The translations under genes were made by a program, and so were the position numbers. A stretch of DNA of 24,790 bases, taken from a virus. The stretch's first letter is position 1, and each line of letters begins with the position of its first letter. The notes beneath the pieces are model-generated. The model was not told the DNA's origin. It ran no database searches and worked only from the letters and a program-made list of their open reading frames with translations. Positions 3,601 through 23,792 of this stretch are shown in pieces. The stretch lies in IMG/VR virus record IMGVR_UViG_3300038954_000171, positions 1 through 24,790 of that record; one strand, 5' to 3'.

Positions 3601-3991
3601 CAGTGACGAGCGCCGGATACTGTATGCTCTCGGCAAGCGGCTCGTCCAGGAGATAGCTCATGTCGTATGCATCGACGCGCCGCGGGCCGATGCGGCTGGT
3701 CTTCCCCTGGCCTATCGTGAACGCATCTGTCGGAGCGATCCACCCGGTAAACACCCGGGCCCCTCCGTACTCATCCACGGTGCAGAAAATCTTCGCGGAG
3801 GCGTTCGCAAATGCGTCGGTGATGTCCTGGTCGTGGAGGAGCATAAAAGAGTAGGAGTCAACGACGCTGCGTCGCTCCTCGTTCATCATCCGCAGGTCTT
3901 CTTCTTGGCTCCCATTCACGACCAAATGCGAGACGTCCGTCCACGTGACGTCTCCAGGGAACATGAGTTGGATCGTGCGCACCGGATTCAT
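638..3991 (-). CDS. Tail-tip / receptor-binding protein with FN3-like and LamG-like parts
   Basis: A 1117-residue late tail protein directly downstream of the tape measure gene, whose stop it overlaps (ATGA at 3988-3991). The N-terminal ~520 residues resemble tail hub or baseplate proteins in position and style but carry no motif I can name. About residues 527-640 look like a fibronectin type III segment (start SKPTLVGVGGFQYTRLAWD). About residues 756-967 look like a LamG/concanavalin-type jelly-roll (LRLFKFDGNMQDQDG at the start, then YMDDLLISPSYATTADRLRQ), a fold phages use to bind glycans. A Gly-run hinge (IGGGGGE) precedes the last ~60 residues. By order and domains it should form the tip that touches the host cell. 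No separate distal tail or tail-associated lysin gene is visible, so several roles may be merged here. Tail-tip role is likely; exact homology is uncertain. Confidence 0.8.
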   Translation of the reverse strand: MNPVRTIQLMFPGDVTWTDVSHLVVNGSQEEDLRMMNEERRSVVDSYSFMLLHDQDITDAFANASAKIFCTVDEYGGARVFTGWIAPTDAFTIGQGKTSRIGPRRVDAYDMSYLLDEPLAESIQYPALVTDSGWKIFDSANPSTSIVHQLLTVAGYNTATDIDPGCPEVLITVDSVTGEKGSETPREILDTLLSEHGYVLTYTAGGQFSLHQWDRDTVVSSATISFVGIQSGLHVSKLEREYDGVELTWAELDVMQDALLYRHNLPISTTAGELGFPGEPIAAGDYFPADSDIEDIYQRFREKWLDVPYLARDTRLRNRDLSLVNTSGHHVEFTADAGVAVSTEEYEPTRSRVNFYNGSGATASIYTWDILGDALYRSAIRKTTVPSTATNPEKRTTRFVFNDARATRLATARSRVLRFGNYRYEFEDRVDYSPGDIVTIHQEHPDFTTLDTTVVILSRRKNPQRPMRRYQAQAITAYSAEAALKVGIGVPSEAAREALSEAVRTTTPTFDDLDNGYTAPSGGTTTPSKPTLVGVGGFQYTRLAWDRQKSLTNFQRYEIQVSPDSGTTWYYPDDGGTGLGAQDPGDDSVYREWYVEEFVHGKLPLDGTTDDPQDKPFTYRTRRVTSDLDRSAWSDPVTVYAGSVPDGSLGANIVHANNIVAAALQALFAKISYQLTIGYYGTGTESSPQEGDVRIYLDGDEIRYEIYTNSAWSTERRIRIGGADANGNFIPFLSCGGLLSDLDDAPTDDPVPADSSLRLFKFDGNMQDQDGVDPWTINLGTAGYNSALEWEGTHCLAPVDSLLNAQYSNGWTVGSDATVAFRLRVDDSDITNSGLVLLHDYVLYNDYITIRYEYYNGGHRIEVTVSKSGTVTTFRSQILSKSVWHFVGFFYNSTSNLAYLRVDDQVFSATPSGAWGSAVSAPVFLELVGGTFGGSTYERYMDDLLISPSYATTADRLRQHYERGRPWTAEYAIEDVLLVPESGGVVRIADTAGALHPMQTWVADRGSDGDGTYLEFANGDKVYIGGGGGETLYTIYGSSVSSGEIFDAFSSAVPLVGDKAFASGGVEDLVVGWVERDTVTSLVFYGWEHSGLGPAIKTLTFWHGSGGNNHAALAVYA

Positions 3992-6600
3992 GCAACGATC
4001 CCCCTGCGCTGCAGCCGCTGTTCCGCCGCCGAGAGCTTTTCGTAGAGGTCGTCCACGCCGTAGACGGGCGCATTGATGTTGATCGTCAGCCCACCGGCGC
4101 CGGTTGGAGCGGGATCCACAACAACGTGTTCGCGCCCACCCGGGTTGTCACCGACGAGCAACAGCTCGGGACCGTTCGTCACGAAGTTTGCTCCACGGGC
4201 TGCCGACTGCACGCCCTGTAGAGTCGTAGCCTGCTCGGCCGCCGCGATCCGCGCATCGTAGACATCGATGGCAGCCTGGAGCTCCTCATCGCGACCACTC
4301 CACAATCGGCCCCACCAGCCCATCGCGTCCCACTCCTCCTGGAGCTTCTCGCGCGCCGCCTCGAGCGCGGCAATCTTGTCGGCGCGAGCGTCCTCGAGAT
4401 CCTGCTTCGCTTCCTCTGCCGCTTTCGCCTCCGCGGTGTCCTCTGCCTCTCCGTAGTCCTCATTGAGATCTTCCATCCCGGAGACAAACTCCTCGGTTGA
4501 GATGCGGTTTCGCTCCCATTGGTCTCGCAGGACGTCGAACTCCAGGTCGAAGATGTCTTGCAGCTCATCCAGGTAGTCGTTTCTGATTTCGATCTCTGAG
4601 CGGTACGCGTCGTCGAGTTCGACGGTGAAACCGCGCGCTTGCGCGGCGGCCGCTTCGAGCGCCTCCTGGGACGGACCGAACAGCCAATCGTAGATGCCTG
4701 CCAGTAGATCAAACCCGGCACCGGCTACCGTTCCCAAGCCCGGGACGCCACTCGATTGTCCGGCAGCCTCCACGCCGATCACGACGAGACTGCGCACGAT
4801 TTCCCGCGCTTGAATCTCCGCCCCACTTAGAGCGGCTCCAATCTGACTAGACAGCGTGGCCGCGATATCCATCGCCGCTTCCACCCACTCATCACGGACG
4901 GTTTCTGCTGCCTCCACGCCGGCGGCCTCTGTCTCCTCCATGACCTCTGTCATGTATTCGTAGGCGGCCACGATTGCCTGGACCTCAGCCTCCTGGATGC
5001 GCGCATTCTCAAGGGAGTCGCTTTGGCTTTGCTCGTACTCCTGCTGTGCTCGCGTCATCGCCTCGATCGCCGCGACAATCGCGTCAACTTCCGCCTTCTC
5101 CATACGACGCTTCTGGAGCAGCTTCTCGTACCTGGAATCCAAGCGCGCCTGAATCTTGTCGTAGGTGCCGACGAGGGAGAGCCTCGTCTCGAGTTCCTCG
5201 GCGAACCCTGTCAGGTCGAGCTGCTGGGTCTCCGAAAGCTCTTCGAGCCTGAGCTGGAGGAGCTCGATTGCCTCGAGCCGTCGCTCCTCAGGCAGCGACC
5301 CGGCCGCCCACTGAAAACGGTTCAGGTACTCGATCTGGTCGAGAATCTTCTCGCGCTCGCTCTTCTCGGACTCCAAGAGGCGCAACACCTCCTGATACGC
5401 CTCCTTGTACTCGCCCTCAATGCGCAGGCGCTCTTTTTCTTCTTGCCGGCGCTTCTCCGCGGCCGCGGCCGCCTGACGCTCGAGCTCCGCTTGGGCCTCA
5501 GCCTCCTCGGCGAGTGATTGCTGGACACTGTAGAGGTAGTCGTACGCGGCCTGCTGTTCGGAAAGGAGCTGGATCAGCTGCGCTCGCTGATTGCGCTCCA
5601 TCACGATGTGCTCGTCCAGCGCCCACTCGTCGGCGCTCATTTCCTTGATGCGCTCACCGCTATCGGCGATGAGTTGACGCGTCTCGTCGAGCTTCGCCTC
5701 TTGGAGCTCGAGTGCACGGGTGTAATCCTCGAGATCACCGAAGCCGGAGAACGCGTCATCGAGGACAGAAGCATCCTCGCGCCGTTGGCGCAGATTCGAG
5801 AACAAGTCGTTCGCCTTCTCGGCGAGTGTCGTGAACGCCTCGATCGCCGGATCAATGGCCTCCAGGACGAGGAACCCGAAGTTTTCGCGGAGGTCGCCGA
5901 CGATGTTGTTGAGCTGCTCCAGCCCGCCGGTTTTCGTCTCCGCCATCGTCCGCGCGACACCGCCGACCTGCTCCTCGAGCGTGTCAAGTATCTCGGCCTG
6001 GGCTGCGGCAACGTCGCCCGCCTCTACCATTGCCTTGATCATGTCGGTCTGCGCCTGAGTGAACGAGACGCCGACACGCCGCAACGCGGTCAGTCCGATA
6101 GTCGGATCCTCGAGCGCCTTGCCGAGCTGCAGCGCCGAGCTCTTCAGGTCTTGGTCGAAAGCCGCCGAGAGATCCAGCGCGAGCTCGGTCGTCCGCTCGA
6201 GCGCTTCTCCTTGGATGCTCTTGAACGTCAACAGTACCGACTGGAGATTGAGTATCGCCTCGTCGCCGAACGTGGTCACGCTCTGGAGGCTAGACGCCAT
6301 AGCCTCGAGCTGCCGCGCGTTGTAGCCGGCCGCTTGCCCGGTTGCCTTCAAAACGCCGGCAAGCTTGGCCTCGGCGCGCTCTTGGGTCGCGTACGCGTCA
6401 ATGAGCTCCCGGCTCGCGTTGACTACCCCCCGGATGACGAGCGCGGCCGCCCCGACGGCCGCGGCCATCTTCCCAAACCCGACCGCGGCGTTCGACGCGG
6501 CTTTGCTGGTGCCCTGCATCGATGAGTCGACGCGCTGAAGATCTCGTACGGCTCTGTCCACCTCGGCCCTGACGCGGACCTTCAGCTCATCGTTCGCCAC
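3988..6600 (-). CDS. Phage tail tape measure protein
   Basis: An 870-residue protein placed after the tail assembly chaperone pair and before the tail tip, the classic place of the tape measure protein that sets tail length and is released during DNA injection. The N-terminus (ELKVRVRAEVDRAVRDLQRV) and the following small-residue helix (GKMAAAVGAAALVIRGVV, about residues 44-61) are typical of the family. The middle (about 330-560) is charged and Ala/Glu/Arg-rich, predicted coiled coil. The C-terminal ~50 residues contain GPELLLVGDNPGGREHVV and a beta-rich TININAPVYG segment, also common in tape measure proteins. At roughly 0.15 nm per residue, a general rule for the family, the tail would be about 130 nm long; this is inference. 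It overlaps the chaperone frame by 14 nt and the tail-tip gene by 4 nt. Confidence 0.92.
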   Translation of the reverse strand: MANDELKVRVRAEVDRAVRDLQRVDSSMQGTSKAASNAAVGFGKMAAAVGAAALVIRGVVNASRELIDAYATQERAEAKLAGVLKATGQAAGYNARQLEAMASSLQSVTTFGDEAILNLQSVLLTFKSIQGEALERTTELALDLSAAFDQDLKSSALQLGKALEDPTIGLTALRRVGVSFTQAQTDMIKAMVEAGDVAAAQAEILDTLEEQVGGVARTMAETKTGGLEQLNNIVGDLRENFGFLVLEAIDPAIEAFTTLAEKANDLFSNLRQRREDASVLDDAFSGFGDLEDYTRALELQEAKLDETRQLIADSGERIKEMSADEWALDEHIVMERNQRAQLIQLLSEQQAAYDYLYSVQQSLAEEAEAQAELERQAAAAAEKRRQEEKERLRIEGEYKEAYQEVLRLLESEKSEREKILDQIEYLNRFQWAAGSLPEERRLEAIELLQLRLEELSETQQLDLTGFAEELETRLSLVGTYDKIQARLDSRYEKLLQKRRMEKAEVDAIVAAIEAMTRAQQEYEQSQSDSLENARIQEAEVQAIVAAYEYMTEVMEETEAAGVEAAETVRDEWVEAAMDIAATLSSQIGAALSGAEIQAREIVRSLVVIGVEAAGQSSGVPGLGTVAGAGFDLLAGIYDWLFGPSQEALEAAAAQARGFTVELDDAYRSEIEIRNDYLDELQDIFDLEFDVLRDQWERNRISTEEFVSGMEDLNEDYGEAEDTAEAKAAEEAKQDLEDARADKIAALEAAREKLQEEWDAMGWWGRLWSGRDEELQAAIDVYDARIAAAEQATTLQGVQSAARGANFVTNGPELLLVGDNPGGREHVVVDPAPTGAGGLTININAPVYGVDDLYEKLSAAEQRLQRRGIVA

Positions 6601-6910
6601 CGGATTTCTCCCTCATCATCTCGCGCGCGTGCTGGTACTCCTGTTCGCAAACCTCCAACACTCTCACGTACAGCATGCGCTCCTGCTTCCATCCGGCGCC
6701 GTGCGCCAATCCAAACCGCCGGTATCGGTTCCAGTCCGCGAGAGCGTCTCTCGTGAACTCGTCCTCCATGATCCGCGGGACGTCGCCGCGTCGGACCAGC
6801 GTTTTGCCGTCCTCCTCGGTGCTGAGGTACACGATGTCCTCTTCGTCCGCAGCAAAACTGTAGTCATCGTAGGCCACGCCCATGGCGATCAGCGACGTGG
6901 CCAGTCTCAG
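6587..6910 (-). CDS. Tail assembly chaperone, frameshift-encoded C-terminal part (gpT-like)
   Basis: This reading frame has no good start of its own: the only early ATG (6883) has no ribosome binding site and lies in the loop of the hairpin described separately. The frame is open from 6910, exactly where a -1 slip on A AAA AAC would deliver ribosomes, giving LRLATSLIAMGVAYDDYS and on to a stop at 6587 (107 residues). Joined to the upstream 111-residue protein it makes a 218-residue fusion, as in the lambda G/GT pair, where the fusion recruits tape measure and tail tube subunits. The segment is acidic at first and then helical (EFTRDALADWNRYRRFG). It ends 14 nt inside the tape measure gene. 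Its role rests on position and the frameshift signal rather than on sequence similarity. Confidence 0.85.
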   Translation of the reverse strand: MRLATSLIAMGVAYDDYSFAADEEDIVYLSTEEDGKTLVRRGDVPRIMEDEFTRDALADWNRYRRFGLAHGAGWKQERMLYVRVLEVCEQEYQHAREMMREKSGGER

Positions 6911-6930
6911 TTTTTTTCACGCTCCTCCCC
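6872..6930 (-). promoter_or_regulatory. Programmed -1 ribosomal frameshift signal (SD + A AAA AAC + hairpin)
   Basis: Three elements lie in order on the minus strand. GGGGAGGAG (6930-6922) is a Shine-Dalgarno-like stretch inside the coding sequence. The heptamer A AAA AAC (6916-6910) is in the correct phase (GAA AAA AAC) and is followed at once by the zero-frame stop TGA (6909-6907). After a 7-nt spacer comes a perfect 7-bp stem, GGCCACG (6902-6896) pairing with CGTGGCC (6878-6872), with a 17-nt loop. This matches the known dnaX-type arrangement in bacteria, where an upstream SD and a downstream stem both raise -1 slippage. A slip opens the frame ending at 6587. Confidence 0.9.
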
Positions 6931-7403: not shown

Positions 7404-8069
7404 CTACGCGACGGTGCGGATGTAGAAGTTCGGACGCTCCGATCCAACGGCGGTGTAGTTGACATTGAACGTCTGTTTCCCCTGCATCGGCTTGTCGCCC
7501 TGCCAGTTGTCCAGAATGACCGGCAGGTACTGCATGATGTTTTTCTCGCCGACCGTCGTCACTTCGTTCCTGCCGAGGAACGCGTGGATCACTCCAGTCG
7601 TCGGTGCGGTGATCGTGATCGTCCCGCCGCCGTCGTCCTCGATGACCGTGAAGAACCGCTTGAGAATCGTGAGCACGTCCGCGTCGTCCGCGAAGAAATA
7701 GCCGTCCCACGTACCACTGATCTCCGGCTTGTCGCCCTCTTCGTACGACATCGCGTTGTCGATCTGGGTTGTCTCGTCGAACTTCTGCTTGCTCGCGGAG
7801 TTCGGGATATCTTTGACCCAGGCCACTTTCGTCATGGGCAGCGGCTTTGCGTTGTCGCCCGTGGCCGGGGTGATCTCGGCAGCGCCGGATCCGTTGTAGA
7901 CGACGTCTCCGACCACTGCGTTCGTTGGCCACGCGCTTCCGGACGCGGCGACGGCGGTGATCTTGTAGAATCCAACGGTTGCGAGCGGTGTCGTACCGTC
8001 GCCAACCTCTTCTGTCCCAGGCGTGGCGAAGTACAGGTAGTTCTTCGTCCCGCTTAGTCGTTTCGACAT
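7404..8069 (-). CDS. Major tail (tube) protein
   Basis: A 221-residue protein that begins MSKRLSGTKNYLYF and is rich in Gly, Thr and Val, with alternating beta-strand patterns such as GGGTITITAPTTGVIHAF and KQTFNVNYTAVGSERPNF. Size, composition and position (after the tail terminator, before the chaperone) fit the major tail tube subunit of siphoviruses, which stacks in rings to form the tail. It starts at ATG 8069 with GGAGGAG about 8 nt upstream, inside the end of the preceding gene, so translation is probably coupled and strong. A GC hairpin follows the stop at 7404, consistent with a need for higher expression than the genes downstream. The repeated acidic and Gly-rich loop (VIEDDGGG) is typical of tube proteins. 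Confidence rests on context and style rather than a single motif. Confidence 0.85.
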   Translation of the reverse strand: MSKRLSGTKNYLYFATPGTEEVGDGTTPLATVGFYKITAVAASGSAWPTNAVVGDVVYNGSGAAEITPATGDNAKPLPMTKVAWVKDIPNSASKQKFDETTQIDNAMSYEEGDKPEISGTWDGYFFADDADVLTILKRFFTVIEDDGGGTITITAPTTGVIHAFLGRNEVTTVGEKNIMQYLPVILDNWQGDKPMQGKQTFNVNYTAVGSERPNFYIRTVA

Positions 8070-20855: not shown

Positions 20856-21533
20856 TCACGCAGATGCCTCCTTCCTAATCTCGTCGCGAAGCGCGTCGAG
20901 CCACTCGAGCACGCGCGCGAGCGTCGCCGCGTCTCGGCAGCGGACGTTGAGCGTAGTCGAGTTGATCGCAGCGACCGAAATGTCGTCGGCGGACCGACGC
21001 CCCGTCACGGTCATCCCGTGTTTCTGGGCCCTTCCGATGAGCTGCCCCGCGGTCATCCCCTTCGCGTCCATCGCTCTGACGACGCCCTCGCTCACGAGCG
21101 CGCCGGAGAGTTTCACCGCATCGTACTGATGCTGCACCCAAGTAGACGAGCGTCCGATGAGCCTTGCGATCTTCGCTCGCGACATTGACCGGTCCGCCCT
21201 GCGCAACTGCTCGAACGCCTCGACGTATTCAACGGCGCTAAGCTGTTTTCGCTGCGCATTCTCGACAATCTGCACGATTGCGCGCGAATCCGGCGTGATT
21301 TCGTCGTTTATCACGCACGGAACAGTCACTTCCTTCCTGGCTCGCATCGCCGCCAGGCGCCGGTGTCCAGCGACCACCTCGTATTCCTTCAAGGTCTTGT
21401 GCCGCACTACGATTGGCTGGAGCAGACCGTGCTTCTCGATCGAGTCCATGAGATCGCCGAGTTCCTCGTCTGCCTCGAGGCGGACGTTGCCGGAGCTCTT
21501 GATCTGCTCGATCGGGATTTCTTTGATTCTCAT
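20856..21533 (-). CDS. ParB-like protein without visible ParA
   Basis: A 225-residue protein from ATG 21533 with GGAGGAG about 5 nt upstream; the longer frame back to 21806 belongs to the broken gene before it. The N-terminal ParB/sulfiredoxin fold is clear: IPIEQIKSSGNVRL, LGDLMDSIEKHGLLQPIVVR, YEVVAGHRRLAAMRA with the GHRR nucleotide-binding motif (56-59) and VENAQRKQLSAVEYVEAFEQ. A helix-turn-helix follows (SRAKIARLIGRSSTWVQHQY, about 118-137). ParB proteins bind parS-like sites and CTP; phage orphans of this type are often regulators or nucleases rather than partition factors. The C-terminal ~60 residues (LNVRCRDAATLARVLEWLDA) are not a usual ParB dimer domain. No ParA gene is visible. 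Confidence 0.88.
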   Translation of the reverse strand: MRIKEIPIEQIKSSGNVRLEADEELGDLMDSIEKHGLLQPIVVRHKTLKEYEVVAGHRRLAAMRARKEVTVPCVINDEITPDSRAIVQIVENAQRKQLSAVEYVEAFEQLRRADRSMSRAKIARLIGRSSTWVQHQYDAVKLSGALVSEGVVRAMDAKGMTAGQLIGRAQKHGMTVTGRRSADDISVAAINSTTLNVRCRDAATLARVLEWLDALRDEIRKEASA

Positions 21534-21544
21534 GGGCTCCTCCC

Positions 21545-21895
21545 TCAGTACCCGGGCAGCAACGGGACACTGCTCCCCGTCTCGTACGCTGATCGAACCG
21601 CGGGGACCGCCGTCTCCGCGACCGTCTTTCCGTTCGGCATCACGATGTGCGCGAGGAACTCCTCGTCGAACTCCGTTTCGCCGGCGACCGGTCGGCGTCG
21701 TGACAAACTCCTCGGCGTCAGGATCCGGCATGGGAAGCAGGAACCGGACGTGGCGACCGTTGGCCTCGAACGCGACGACCGCCCGGTCAGGGCGCACGCC
21801 GTACATGAACCCTTCCGCACCGTAGCGGCTGGCGTTCGCTCGATCTCCGCCTTGCTCCGATCAACAGGAACGCTCGTGTTCTCCGCGTAGCTCAT
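21545..21895 (-). pseudogene. Broken phage gene of a conserved unknown family
   Basis: Three protein-like pieces lie in two frames. ATG 21895 (overlapping the peptidase stop, ATGA) starts MSYAENTSVPVDRSKAEIER, in frame to about 21833. The next piece RYGAEGFMYGVRPDRAVVAF continues in another frame from 21827 to about 21678 and ends FVTTPTGRRR. The last piece (TEFDEEFLAHIVMPNGKTVA and on to SSVPLLPGY) returns to the first frame and ends at 21545. From memory, intact family members keep this same order, with about 40 more residues between the second and third pieces. The data fit a single-base deletion near 21828-21832 plus an internal deletion near 21680. The first frame is open throughout, so a scrambled 116-residue product could still be made. 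Function of the family is unknown. Confidence 0.8.
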
Positions 21896-22539
21896 GACCG
21901 CTCCTTCGGCGCCACGTACAGAAGCGGGTTGAGGGCCTCGCCGGCGGCATCCTGAATCTCGAAGTGAAGATGAGCCCCGCGGCTTCGCCCGGTGCTCCCG
22001 ACCCGCCCGATCACCTCGCCGGCGCGGATCGTCCAGCCGGTGTGCACCCGGGTCTCTGAGAGGTGCGCGTAGAGCGTCCTCCATCCGTTCGAGTGCTCGA
22101 GGATCACCAGGCCGCCGTAGACCTCGTGCCCTCGATAGTAGCCGTCAGGCGGCGGCCAGTGCTCCACCACGACGCCGTCGGCTGAGGCTACGACCTGTGC
22201 GCGCCAGGTCGCCGCGACGTCGATCCCCTGGTGATACCGCTCGACCTCGAGGATCGGGCTCACCCGGTACCCGTAGGGACTGGTGAGCGTGAGGTAGTCG
22301 GTCTCCGCGATCGGGAACGTGTACGGCGAGCTCACCGCCTGGGTCGGCGGAGGATCGGTCTCCGCACCGCCCTCACGGATCCCGGCGTCGGACTCCGCGG
22401 ATACCGCGGCGAGCTCGGCCTCGAGGCGATCGATCTCCGCGCGCTGCCCGTTCGCTCGGTCGTACAGCACCATGGTGATGAGGAGGAGAACGATGCACAG
22501 CAGCAGGACCGCGGCGGTCAGTGGTACGTCGCGCCTCAT
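21892..22539 (-). CDS. Membrane-anchored M23 peptidase (LytM-type)
   Basis: A 215-residue protein from ATG 22539, overlapping the stop of the two-helix membrane gene (ATGA). One hydrophobic helix at the N-terminus (LTAAVLLLCIVLLLITMVLY) is followed by a coiled coil (RAEIDRLEAELAAVSAES), a Pro-rich linker and the M23 domain from about residue 85. Zinc ligands are seen in RYHQGIDV (H103, D107) and GAHLHFE (H192); AHLSE supplies the further catalytic His (H159) and SPYGYRVSP is the usual start of the domain. Such enzymes cut peptidoglycan cross-bridges or stem peptides; a membrane anchor places it facing the wall. It may serve lysis together with the preceding membrane protein. It lies near the integrase, not after the tail genes. 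Confidence 0.9.
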   Translation of the reverse strand: MRRDVPLTAAVLLLCIVLLLITMVLYDRANGQRAEIDRLEAELAAVSAESDAGIREGGAETDPPPTQAVSSPYTFPIAETDYLTLTSPYGYRVSPILEVERYHQGIDVAATWRAQVVASADGVVVEHWPPPDGYYRGHEVYGGLVILEHSNGWRTLYAHLSETRVHTGWTIRAGEVIGRVGSTGRSRGAHLHFEIQDAAGEALNPLLYVAPKERS

Positions 22540-22736
22540 CGGACATCCTCCAGTCCCCAACAGACCAGGAACGTCCCGACCGTGGCCGCAACGACGAGGC
22601 CGAGCGCCGCCCACGCCGAGAGCGTCTGGACGCCGGCGGCAATAGTTGCGATCAGGCCGACGATCGTCAGTCCGACCAGGAGAAGCCCGACCGATGCCCG
22701 GCGAGCTCCCGGGTTGCGCTTCCATTCATCTCGCAT
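22536..22736 (-). CDS. Small two-helix membrane protein, possible holin
   Basis: A 66-residue protein from ATG 22736, after GGAGGGAGG. After a basic start (RDEWKRNPGARRAS) it has two hydrophobic helices, VGLLLVGLTIVGLIATIA and WAALGLVVAATVGTFLVCW, linked by a short turn, and ends in LEDVR. Size, topology and the adjacent M23 peptidase fit a class II holin, which would form lesions at lysis. Positive charges at the start suggest the N-terminus stays inside. No holin family is certain by sequence, so the role is an inference from context. Confidence 0.7.
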   Translation of the reverse strand: MRDEWKRNPGARRASVGLLLVGLTIVGLIATIAAGVQTLSAWAALGLVVAATVGTFLVCWGLEDVR

Positions 22737-22941
22737 CCGATCCTCCCTCCGGAGCGTTGAGCACTCCGTCGAATCGCTGAAAAAGGAGCTCGAGCTCGCG
22801 GTTGCGGCGCTCGAGCTTCGTCACGTGCAGCGCGATCGTCTCCACCGCGCCGTCGACCAGGAGATCGTTGACCGCCCGGAGGGCGCTCTCGACAGCGGGA
22901 TCCTCGATCTCGTTCAACAGCGCGCGCAGCTTTAGCGTCAC
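22726..22941 (-). CDS. Helical protein, 71 residues, after integrase
   Basis: GTG 22941 shares GTGA with the integrase stop and has GGGGGG about 6 nt upstream. The protein is helical (KLRALLNEIEDPAVESALRA, VNDLLVDGAVETIALHVTKL, then ERRNRELELLFQRFDG), the last part with coiled-coil spacing. It overlaps the possible holin gene. No function is known to me; coupling to both neighbours suggests it belongs to the same transcript. Confidence 0.65.
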   Translation of the reverse strand: MTLKLRALLNEIEDPAVESALRAVNDLLVDGAVETIALHVTKLERRNRELELLFQRFDGVLNAPEGGSDAR

Positions 22942-23792
22942 AGTTCACCCCCCAGAATCACGTCCATGACCGTCTCGAACTCGAGCTCGTCGTGCACGTA
23001 CATGTCGAGCGTGGTCGCCGCTGAGGCGTGACCGAGCTGGTCCTTCACCGCCGCAACAGTCGTCTTGTTGGACTTCGTCATCAGAGTGCCGAACGTGTGG
23101 CGAAACATGTGCGGAGTGACCTTCCTTCCGACGATTGGCGTGCAGGTGTCCTTGATGAGCTTCGTGAGCCCGTCTGGATCTCGGCGCCCTCCCTCGCGAG
23201 TTTCGAACAACCAGGTTGTGCCGGCGAACACTCTGCGGATGTCAGCCACCAGGCTCCGCGGCATATCGACATGTCGCTCCTTCCCGCCCTTCCCGAATAC
23301 ACGAACTCGATACTTACCGCCGATGCCTACCTGCACGTCGCTCAGGCGTATTCCGCACAACTCAGCCCTCCGGATACCCGTGACCAAGAGGGTCTTCACG
23401 ATCAGTTGCGTCCGCTCGCTGAGGCAGTCGCTCGTGAGAAGCGCAACCATCTCCTCGCGCGTGAGGCTGCGCTCTGCGGGAACGGCGCGGCTCTTTCGCG
23501 CGCCGCGGACCTCGGATAGCCGACGTTCGAACTCAGCGTACGCGCTGCGATCCCTCGACTCCTCGCTCTGCACGAAAATGAACCGGAGGAGCTTCTTCGC
23601 GCCGGTCAGTCGCTTATTGATCGTCCCGGCTTTGTAGGCCGAGCCCTTCAGACTCGTCGCGTACGCTTCGATCGCCGAAACCGACATCTCCAGCCCGTTC
23701 TCCGAGACGAATCGCACGAACGCCTTGAAGTCCGGCCGATAGTCCTTGTACCGGGAGCTGACGTCCTGGAGTATGTCGGGCGTGCATTTCAT
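22938..23792 (-). CDS. int: Tyrosine recombinase (phage integrase)
   Basis: A 284-residue site-specific recombinase of the lambda Int/XerC-D class. The N-terminal ~100 residues (YRPDFKAFVRFVSENGLEMS, INKRLTGAKKLLRFIFVQSE) form the core-binding SAM-like domain. The catalytic residues are all present: R141 in VTGIRRAELCG, K171 in FGKGGKERHVDMP, H228 and R231 in TPHMFRHTFG, H255 in LGHASAATT and Y265 in LDMYVHDE. It should integrate the phage into and excise it from the host chromosome. It starts at ATG 23792, overlapping the gene before it (ATGA); a GGAG element is about 10 nt upstream. It is followed by three overlapping genes, so it shares their transcript. No arm-type amino-terminal domain is evident. 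Confidence 0.96.
   Translation of the reverse strand: MKCTPDILQDVSSRYKDYRPDFKAFVRFVSENGLEMSVSAIEAYATSLKGSAYKAGTINKRLTGAKKLLRFIFVQSEESRDRSAYAEFERRLSEVRGARKSRAVPAERSLTREEMVALLTSDCLSERTQLIVKTLLVTGIRRAELCGIRLSDVQVGIGGKYRVRVFGKGGKERHVDMPRSLVADIRRVFAGTTWLFETREGGRRDPDGLTKLIKDTCTPIVGRKVTPHMFRHTFGTLMTKSNKTTVAAVKDQLGHASAATTLDMYVHDELEFETVMDVILGGEL

Follow-up and report, generated by a model that had tools for sequence, protein, structure and literature searches.

We analyzed a 24.8-kb virus contig (the whole stretch, referred to here as the window; GC content 62%) whose minus strand carries, in order, genes for a terminase, portal, protease, HK97-type capsid protein, head-tail adaptor and probable major tail protein, followed by a pair of ORFs and the tape measure gene. 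The probable major tail protein was assigned by position, and an HMM search with it gave no match; the tape measure product matches both the PHROG tail length tape measure family (E = 2e-45) and annotated tape measures. Two ORFs, the second in the -1 frame, lie between the probable major tail protein and tape measure genes, and this pair occupies the place of lambda G and T in the gene order. No tRNA genes were found in the 24.8-kb window. We refer to the zero-frame ORF as G and to its predicted -1 fusion as GT; the features of the region are as follows.

7404 to 8069, minus strand: probable major tail protein gene (product 81% identical in the related contig L035)
7242 to 6907, minus strand: G, putative zero-frame tail assembly chaperone ORF (111 codons, 111 residues; ATG start)
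6930 to 6922, minus strand: internal Shine-Dalgarno (SD)-like sequence GGGGAGGAG, with its GGAGG core at 6928 to 6924
6916 to 6910, minus strand: candidate slippery heptamer A AAA AAC, in X XXY YYZ phase with G and at its end
6909 to 6907, minus strand: zero-frame stop TGA, abutting the heptamer
6902 to 6896, minus strand: 5' arm of the stem, GGCCACG (GGCGACG in L035)
6878 to 6872, minus strand: 3' arm of the stem, CGTGGCC (CGTCGCC in L035)
6587 to 6916, minus strand: GT extension in the -1 frame (109 codons counting the slipped AAA)
3988 to 6600, minus strand: tape measure gene, adjoining and overlapping the end of GT

G is preceded by GAGG at 7255-7252, 9 nt before its ATG, and at its other end the minus strand reads GGGGAGGAGCGTGAAAAAAACTGAGACTGGCCACGTCGCTGATCGCCATGGGCGTGGCC. 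Here the GGAGG core is separated from the heptamer by 7 nt (8 nt when counted from GGAG), and the heptamer is followed, after a 7-nt spacer, by a stem of 7 perfect base pairs closing a 17-nt loop; folding extends the stem by two inner pairs, to 9 bp counting G·U. The initial annotation had described the SD, the in-phase heptamer with its adjoining stop and the 7-bp stem at 7 nt, and all of its coordinates are correct. In the -1 frame, a TGA at 6919-6917 lies immediately 5' of the shifted codons, and the frame stays open from there to 6587, such that slippage would yield a product of 111 + 107 = 218 residues beside the 111-residue form, as had been proposed and as we confirmed base for base. 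UGA readthrough was rejected, with the zero frame reaching a second stop five codons on.

We asked how unusual each element is within the window. The A7 run at 6917-6911 is the sole run of six or more A residues on either strand, and any further XXXYYYZ heptamers that fall in phase in the listed window genes lie deep inside them and are of GGG- or CCC-containing types. In-phase GGAGG occurs once per ~180 codons of window genes. A comparable stem at offset 4-10 arose in 0.8% of codon-shuffled -1 ORFs (p = 0.008; p = 0.003 in the same test on L035), and the 91-nt region taken by itself has a modest minimum free energy z-score of -1.9. The heptamer, SD and stem are thus weak singly and strong combined, and they are decisive given their conservation in relatives.

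Two relatives of the pair were identified. The first, IMGVR_UViG_3300040801_001541 (a single contig recovered as L035, L036 and L133), was located by using the probable major tail protein as the scan query, and its whole site therefore counts as independent evidence. This contig is collinear with the window, with 69% identity in the fusion, 70% in G and 69% in GT. At its site, GGGGAGGAGCGCGAAAAAAACTGAGAC precedes GGCGACG...CGTCGCC; over the 14 stem positions, the sole differences from the window are a C to G change and the matching G to C change. This compensatory swap of a C-G for a G-C pair leaves the -1-frame residues unchanged (GCC/GCG, both Ala; GTG/GTC, both Val). A single such exchange, seen in one pair of genomes, suggests a functional stem but falls short of proof. 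The second relative, L087, comes from the same sample and is more divergent (fusion 36% identical; GT 39%, 1e-27; G 35-37%, 2e-14). Its site has GGAGG at 7 nt plus GAAAAAAACTGAGAC, with a strong predicted hairpin starting 6 nt past the heptamer. Since L087 was fetched by its SD and heptamer pattern, its independent evidence is limited to the hairpin and the protein similarity, and its stem sequence is too divergent for base-pair counting. In an alignment the GGAGG core, A AAA AAC and TGA are identical in L035 and L087; the ORF pair is likewise retained in both contigs, as is a hairpin that begins 6-7 nt past the heptamer. The conservation across related phages that had been proposed as a check is therefore present. 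Relatives were not found in viral scans with single-protein G, GT or tape measure queries; bacterial genome contig scans gave none that was confirmed, and tblastn against annotated phages returned no homolog of G or of the L087 GT.

Comparison of the window with L035 shows that the -1 ORF is genuinely protein-coding, because differences are biased toward third codon positions in both frames: 21/20/42 by codon position in G (p = 9e-4) and 29/17/51 in GT (p = 7e-5). Both G and the -1 frame are therefore coding and under purifying selection. In addition, the -1-frame residues EKKLR.A, which lie ahead of any start codon, are kept in the window, L035 and L087.

Pfam and PHROG profile searches gave no family match for G or GT. 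AlphaFold modeling of G from three sequences reached a mean pLDDT of 82 (a two-sequence model was poor, at 54), and in the three-sequence model the final helix is predicted to reach the slip site, extending through residue 110. This model had no match in the PDB; against a viral structure library, seven of the ten specifically named rows were tail or tape-measure chaperones, all of them weak matches (E > 0.5). We assign G and GT as putative chaperones from their position, their relatives and the layout of the site.

The closest parallels to the site lie in known phages. Klebsiella phage phiKO2 gp13/gp14 has the arrangement seen in the window, GGAGG-7-A AAA AAC followed at once by a stop, with a GC-rich stem (CTCGCCC...GGGCGAG) 7 nt past the heptamer, and the phiKO2 record annotates the site as a putative programmed frameshift. 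Yersinia phage PY54 and Escherichia phage Fostie likewise combine A AAA AAC with an adjacent stop and a GC-rich stem ~7 nt on; in both, a GAGG ends 7 nt upstream, making the PY54 SD weaker than GGAGG. All three sites lie directly before the tape measure gene, as in the window, but they differ from it in their TAA stop, far longer stem loop and proteins without recognizable relation. The records of Fostie (L195; PP925832.1) and PY54 (L196; NC_005069.1) annotate only the short chaperone; the -1 extension is absent from both, despite the A AAA AAC-TAA and stem that they carry.

The lambda G/GT slip site is GGGAAAG, as opposed to A AAA AAC in the window. G/GT frameshifting in phage tails is long known (reviewed in PMC5009743), and the window shares with lambda the gene position, a short form plus a -1 fusion, and a presumed role in tail assembly (PMC5009743); in contrast, we found no sequence similarity between the window pair and Phage_tail_T. 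The site had also been likened to that of E. coli dnaX (tau/gamma). The likeness holds for the presence of three parts, an SD-like element, an A-rich heptamer and a stem (PMC5009743, PMC3711429), and fails in their details. The dnaX heptamer is A AAA AAG, its SD lies 9-14 nt from the shift site (PMC5009743) as opposed to 7-8 nt in the window, and ~50% shifting there yields the shorter product whereas a shift in the window would give the longer one. Given that heptamer, SD distance and direction of product size all differ, the window site cannot strictly be called a dnaX signal. The SD distance does fall inside the interval of 6-17 nt quoted as tested (PMC4066793).

According to published accounts (PMC5009743, PMC4066793), A AAA AAC slips poorly in E. 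coli, in agreement with the initial annotation. It is nonetheless used in IS1 insA-insB' despite this low efficiency (PMC4066793), a case unlike the window in encoding a transposase and having no established stimulator. Among tail chaperones, published descriptions give AAAAAAC as the slip site in phages of the Caulobacter phage phiCbK type (PMC3556154) and in Acinetobacter phage Loki, where it abuts the G stop (PMC5313236), and it is possibly the slip site of Paenibacillus phage Dragolir (PMC6003738). Since AAAAAAC is a published slip site of several other phages, unusual host tRNAs are not needed to explain the site.

We next examined how widely this layout occurs. A DNA scan of IMG/VR with the pattern GGAGG-N5-GAAAAAAACTGA matched at least 120 contigs. 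In all 120 matches listed, the GGAGG-N7-A AAA AAC-TGA layout fits the end of a tail-chaperone ORF, with the heptamer in phase at the ORF end and a -1 ORF continuing beyond it; a long ORF further on is present in every contig among them that reaches that far. Separately, 34 loci were fetched by capsid similarity, ignoring the site. Four of these have an in-phase A-rich heptamer followed by an extended -1 ORF that precedes the tape measure gene (A AAA AAC in L002, L003 and L034; A AAA AAG in L006); heptamers in L011, L012, L027 and L032 were judged spurious and left out of the evidence. Products of the -1 frame match Pfam Phage_tail_T in L034, L137, L154 and the capsid-fetched L002, and Phage_TAC_18 in L115. 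We pooled the sites from all fetched loci and grouped them at 50% GT identity, because single-linkage clustering with a cutoff of E < 1e-3 let weak links join most of the sites together. Of the resulting 53 groups, a few (L185, L193) are probably not tail chaperones. The SD-heptamer-stop layout is common to about 50 divergent groups, and the initial description of such a site as rarely this complete does not hold: the layout is found in at least 120 viral contigs as well as in phiKO2 and, with the weaker GAGG, in PY54. In L042, L046, L049, L082 and L103, the -1-frame domains contain several cysteines with CxxC-like spacing and are unlike the window GT.

To define the SD spacing, we ran a second pattern scan that permitted GGAGG 2-16 nt upstream of the heptamer and again obtained at least 120 matches. 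Among the 120 matches listed, the spacing is exactly 7 nt in 83, and the remaining 37, many of which are not tail genes, are scattered over other distances. Counted by group, the 7-nt spacing is found in 44 of 53, as against 1, 2, 1 and 2 groups at the same-codon-phase spacings of 4, 10, 13 and 16 nt; the group figure is biased by the part of the set that came from the first scan, fixed at 7 nt, and 83/120 is the cleaner figure. Conservation of Glu at the protein level could contribute to the 7-nt excess, because the phase forces a GAG codon there. In 18 tail-chaperone sites picked by neither SD nor stop (a set not fully independent, as it includes two Streptomyces phages and other related records), GAGG lies at exactly 7 nt in seven and the stop abuts the heptamer in 12, while several have no SD-like tetramer. 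An SD at tail-chaperone slip sites is thus frequent, not universal. An adjacent stop is also not restricted to A AAA AAC sites. GGGAAAC followed at once by TGA occurs in the tail chaperones of Dinoroseobacter phage vB_DshS-R4C (L197), Rhodobacter phage RcCronus (L198) and Streptomyces phages phiSASD1 (L201) and Dubu (L203), with GAGG 7 nt before GGGAAAC in phiSASD1 and DshS-R4C.

The 53 groups were chosen without regard to stems, and their stems are likewise positioned. Stem scores are on average highest at offsets 6-10, reaching 12.5 at offset 7 over a background of 7.1 (s.d. 0.5). Of the 53 groups, 26 have a strong stem at offsets 4-10 as opposed to 3.1 expected, an approximately eight-fold enrichment. 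In 45-nt windows, the mean folding energy drops from ~-10.5 to -17.7 kcal/mol just past the heptamer.

Taken together, we consider it highly probable that the site directs programmed -1 ribosomal frameshifting in a tail assembly chaperone gene of the lambda G/GT type, as the initial annotation had proposed. This reading is favored because A AAA AAC-TGA is in phase, the -1 frame is coding, all three elements are kept in relatives, and the tape measure gene lies directly downstream; elsewhere, the same layout precedes Phage_tail_T or Phage_TAC_18 products, the phiKO2 site is annotated, and stems are enriched across groups. We infer the slippage itself, its rate, the role of each helper and the chaperone function along the following lines. 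Most ribosomes would read A AAA AAC and terminate at the adjacent TGA to give the 111-residue G. A pause with tRNA-Lys and tRNA-Asn on AAA AAC may be promoted by pairing of GGAGG with the 16S rRNA tail and by the hairpin at the mRNA entrance. Some ribosomes would then re-pair on AAA AAA, presumably by tandem slippage in competition with termination at the TGA, and read the -1 frame to 6587 to give the 218-residue GT. By analogy with lambda, G may coat the tape measure protein and GT may recruit the major tail protein, with the slip rate setting the G:GT ratio.

We weighed three alternatives to this model. The main mechanistic rival is transcriptional slippage, in which the polymerase would add one A at the A7 run and the resulting A8 transcript would be translated normally into the fusion. 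The run is present, and poly-A runs are known polymerase slip sites, yet seven A residues are short for efficient slippage, for which n > 7 is quoted for A runs (PMC3711429). Transcriptional slippage would also leave the SD and the fixed-distance stem, both enriched at such sites, without a role, and a related -1 chaperone family (phiSASD1, Dubu) has at this place GGGAAAC, which polymerase slippage cannot use; we therefore disfavor it as very improbable. Even harder to sustain is the proposal that the A-run is incidental and that GT arises as a distinct protein, through termination-reinitiation or initiation at a start codon of its own. The first ATG of the -1 frame, at 6883, and the SD-like sequence near the G stop, which could serve coupling, would both fit such a scheme. 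This ATG, however, has no SD before it and lies inside the hairpin loop, and the GGAGG 7 nt before the heptamer is at an unsuitable distance for a GT start. In L087 the first ATG is GT codon 102, with only a GTG at codon 9 earlier, and the conserved EKKLR.A residues precede any start in all three sequences. A search for a separate start of the second frame, envisaged in the initial annotation, thus did not yield a convincing one, and we regard this proposal as scarcely credible.

The third alternative accepts the heptamer and the -1 ORF and treats the SD and stem as passengers, with the heptamer and adjacent stop sufficing. The sites not chosen by SD speak for it in part, with GAGG at 7 nt in only seven of 18 and several lacking an SD-like tetramer. 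Against this stand the spacing of exactly 7 nt in 83 of the 120 matches listed and in 44 of 53 groups, which holds even against same-phase spacings, and the enrichment of stems at offsets 6-10; a passenger role for both elements is in our view unlikely.

The site is therefore a fresh example of a known device, G/GT frameshifting, with the same layout in many phages. It extends the long list of phages that use this device by an unannotated putative chaperone family, of which three members were seen. We tentatively propose, as a plausible generalization somewhat short of probable, that these sites form a class of fixed geometry, GGAGG - 7 nt - A AAA AAC - stop - 6 to 8 nt - stem, across dozens of divergent tail chaperone families. 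In such a class the SD would be held more tightly than the 9-14 nt of dnaX, the stop would be part of the signal, and a heptamer with poor activity in E. coli would become effective through the fixed positions of the helper elements. The recurring geometry is more useful than the single site, as it provides a large natural set with the same SD-heptamer-stop-stem spacing, in which it becomes testable whether the 7-nt SD, adjacent stop and stem compensate for the weak A AAA AAC. The motif is also precise for locating tail-chaperone fusions in unannotated viral contigs (all 120 matches listed fitted).

Two further observations concern the surroundings of the pair. A conserved small ORF at 7393-7073 on the minus strand (MLLRIRPGNVPGQLSTYRLE...) begins upstream of G and overlaps it by 170 nt in G's -1 frame; only its first ~50 codons look constrained, because substitutions relative to L035 within the overlap favor G-frame third positions (6/8/22). 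Gordonia phage BetterKatz has a small gene of unknown function at the matching place. Farther along the minus strand, ORFs read as ParB-like (20856-21806), M23-type peptidase-like (21892-22725) and tyrosine recombinase-like (22938-23792), and these predicted functions suggest a temperate phage.
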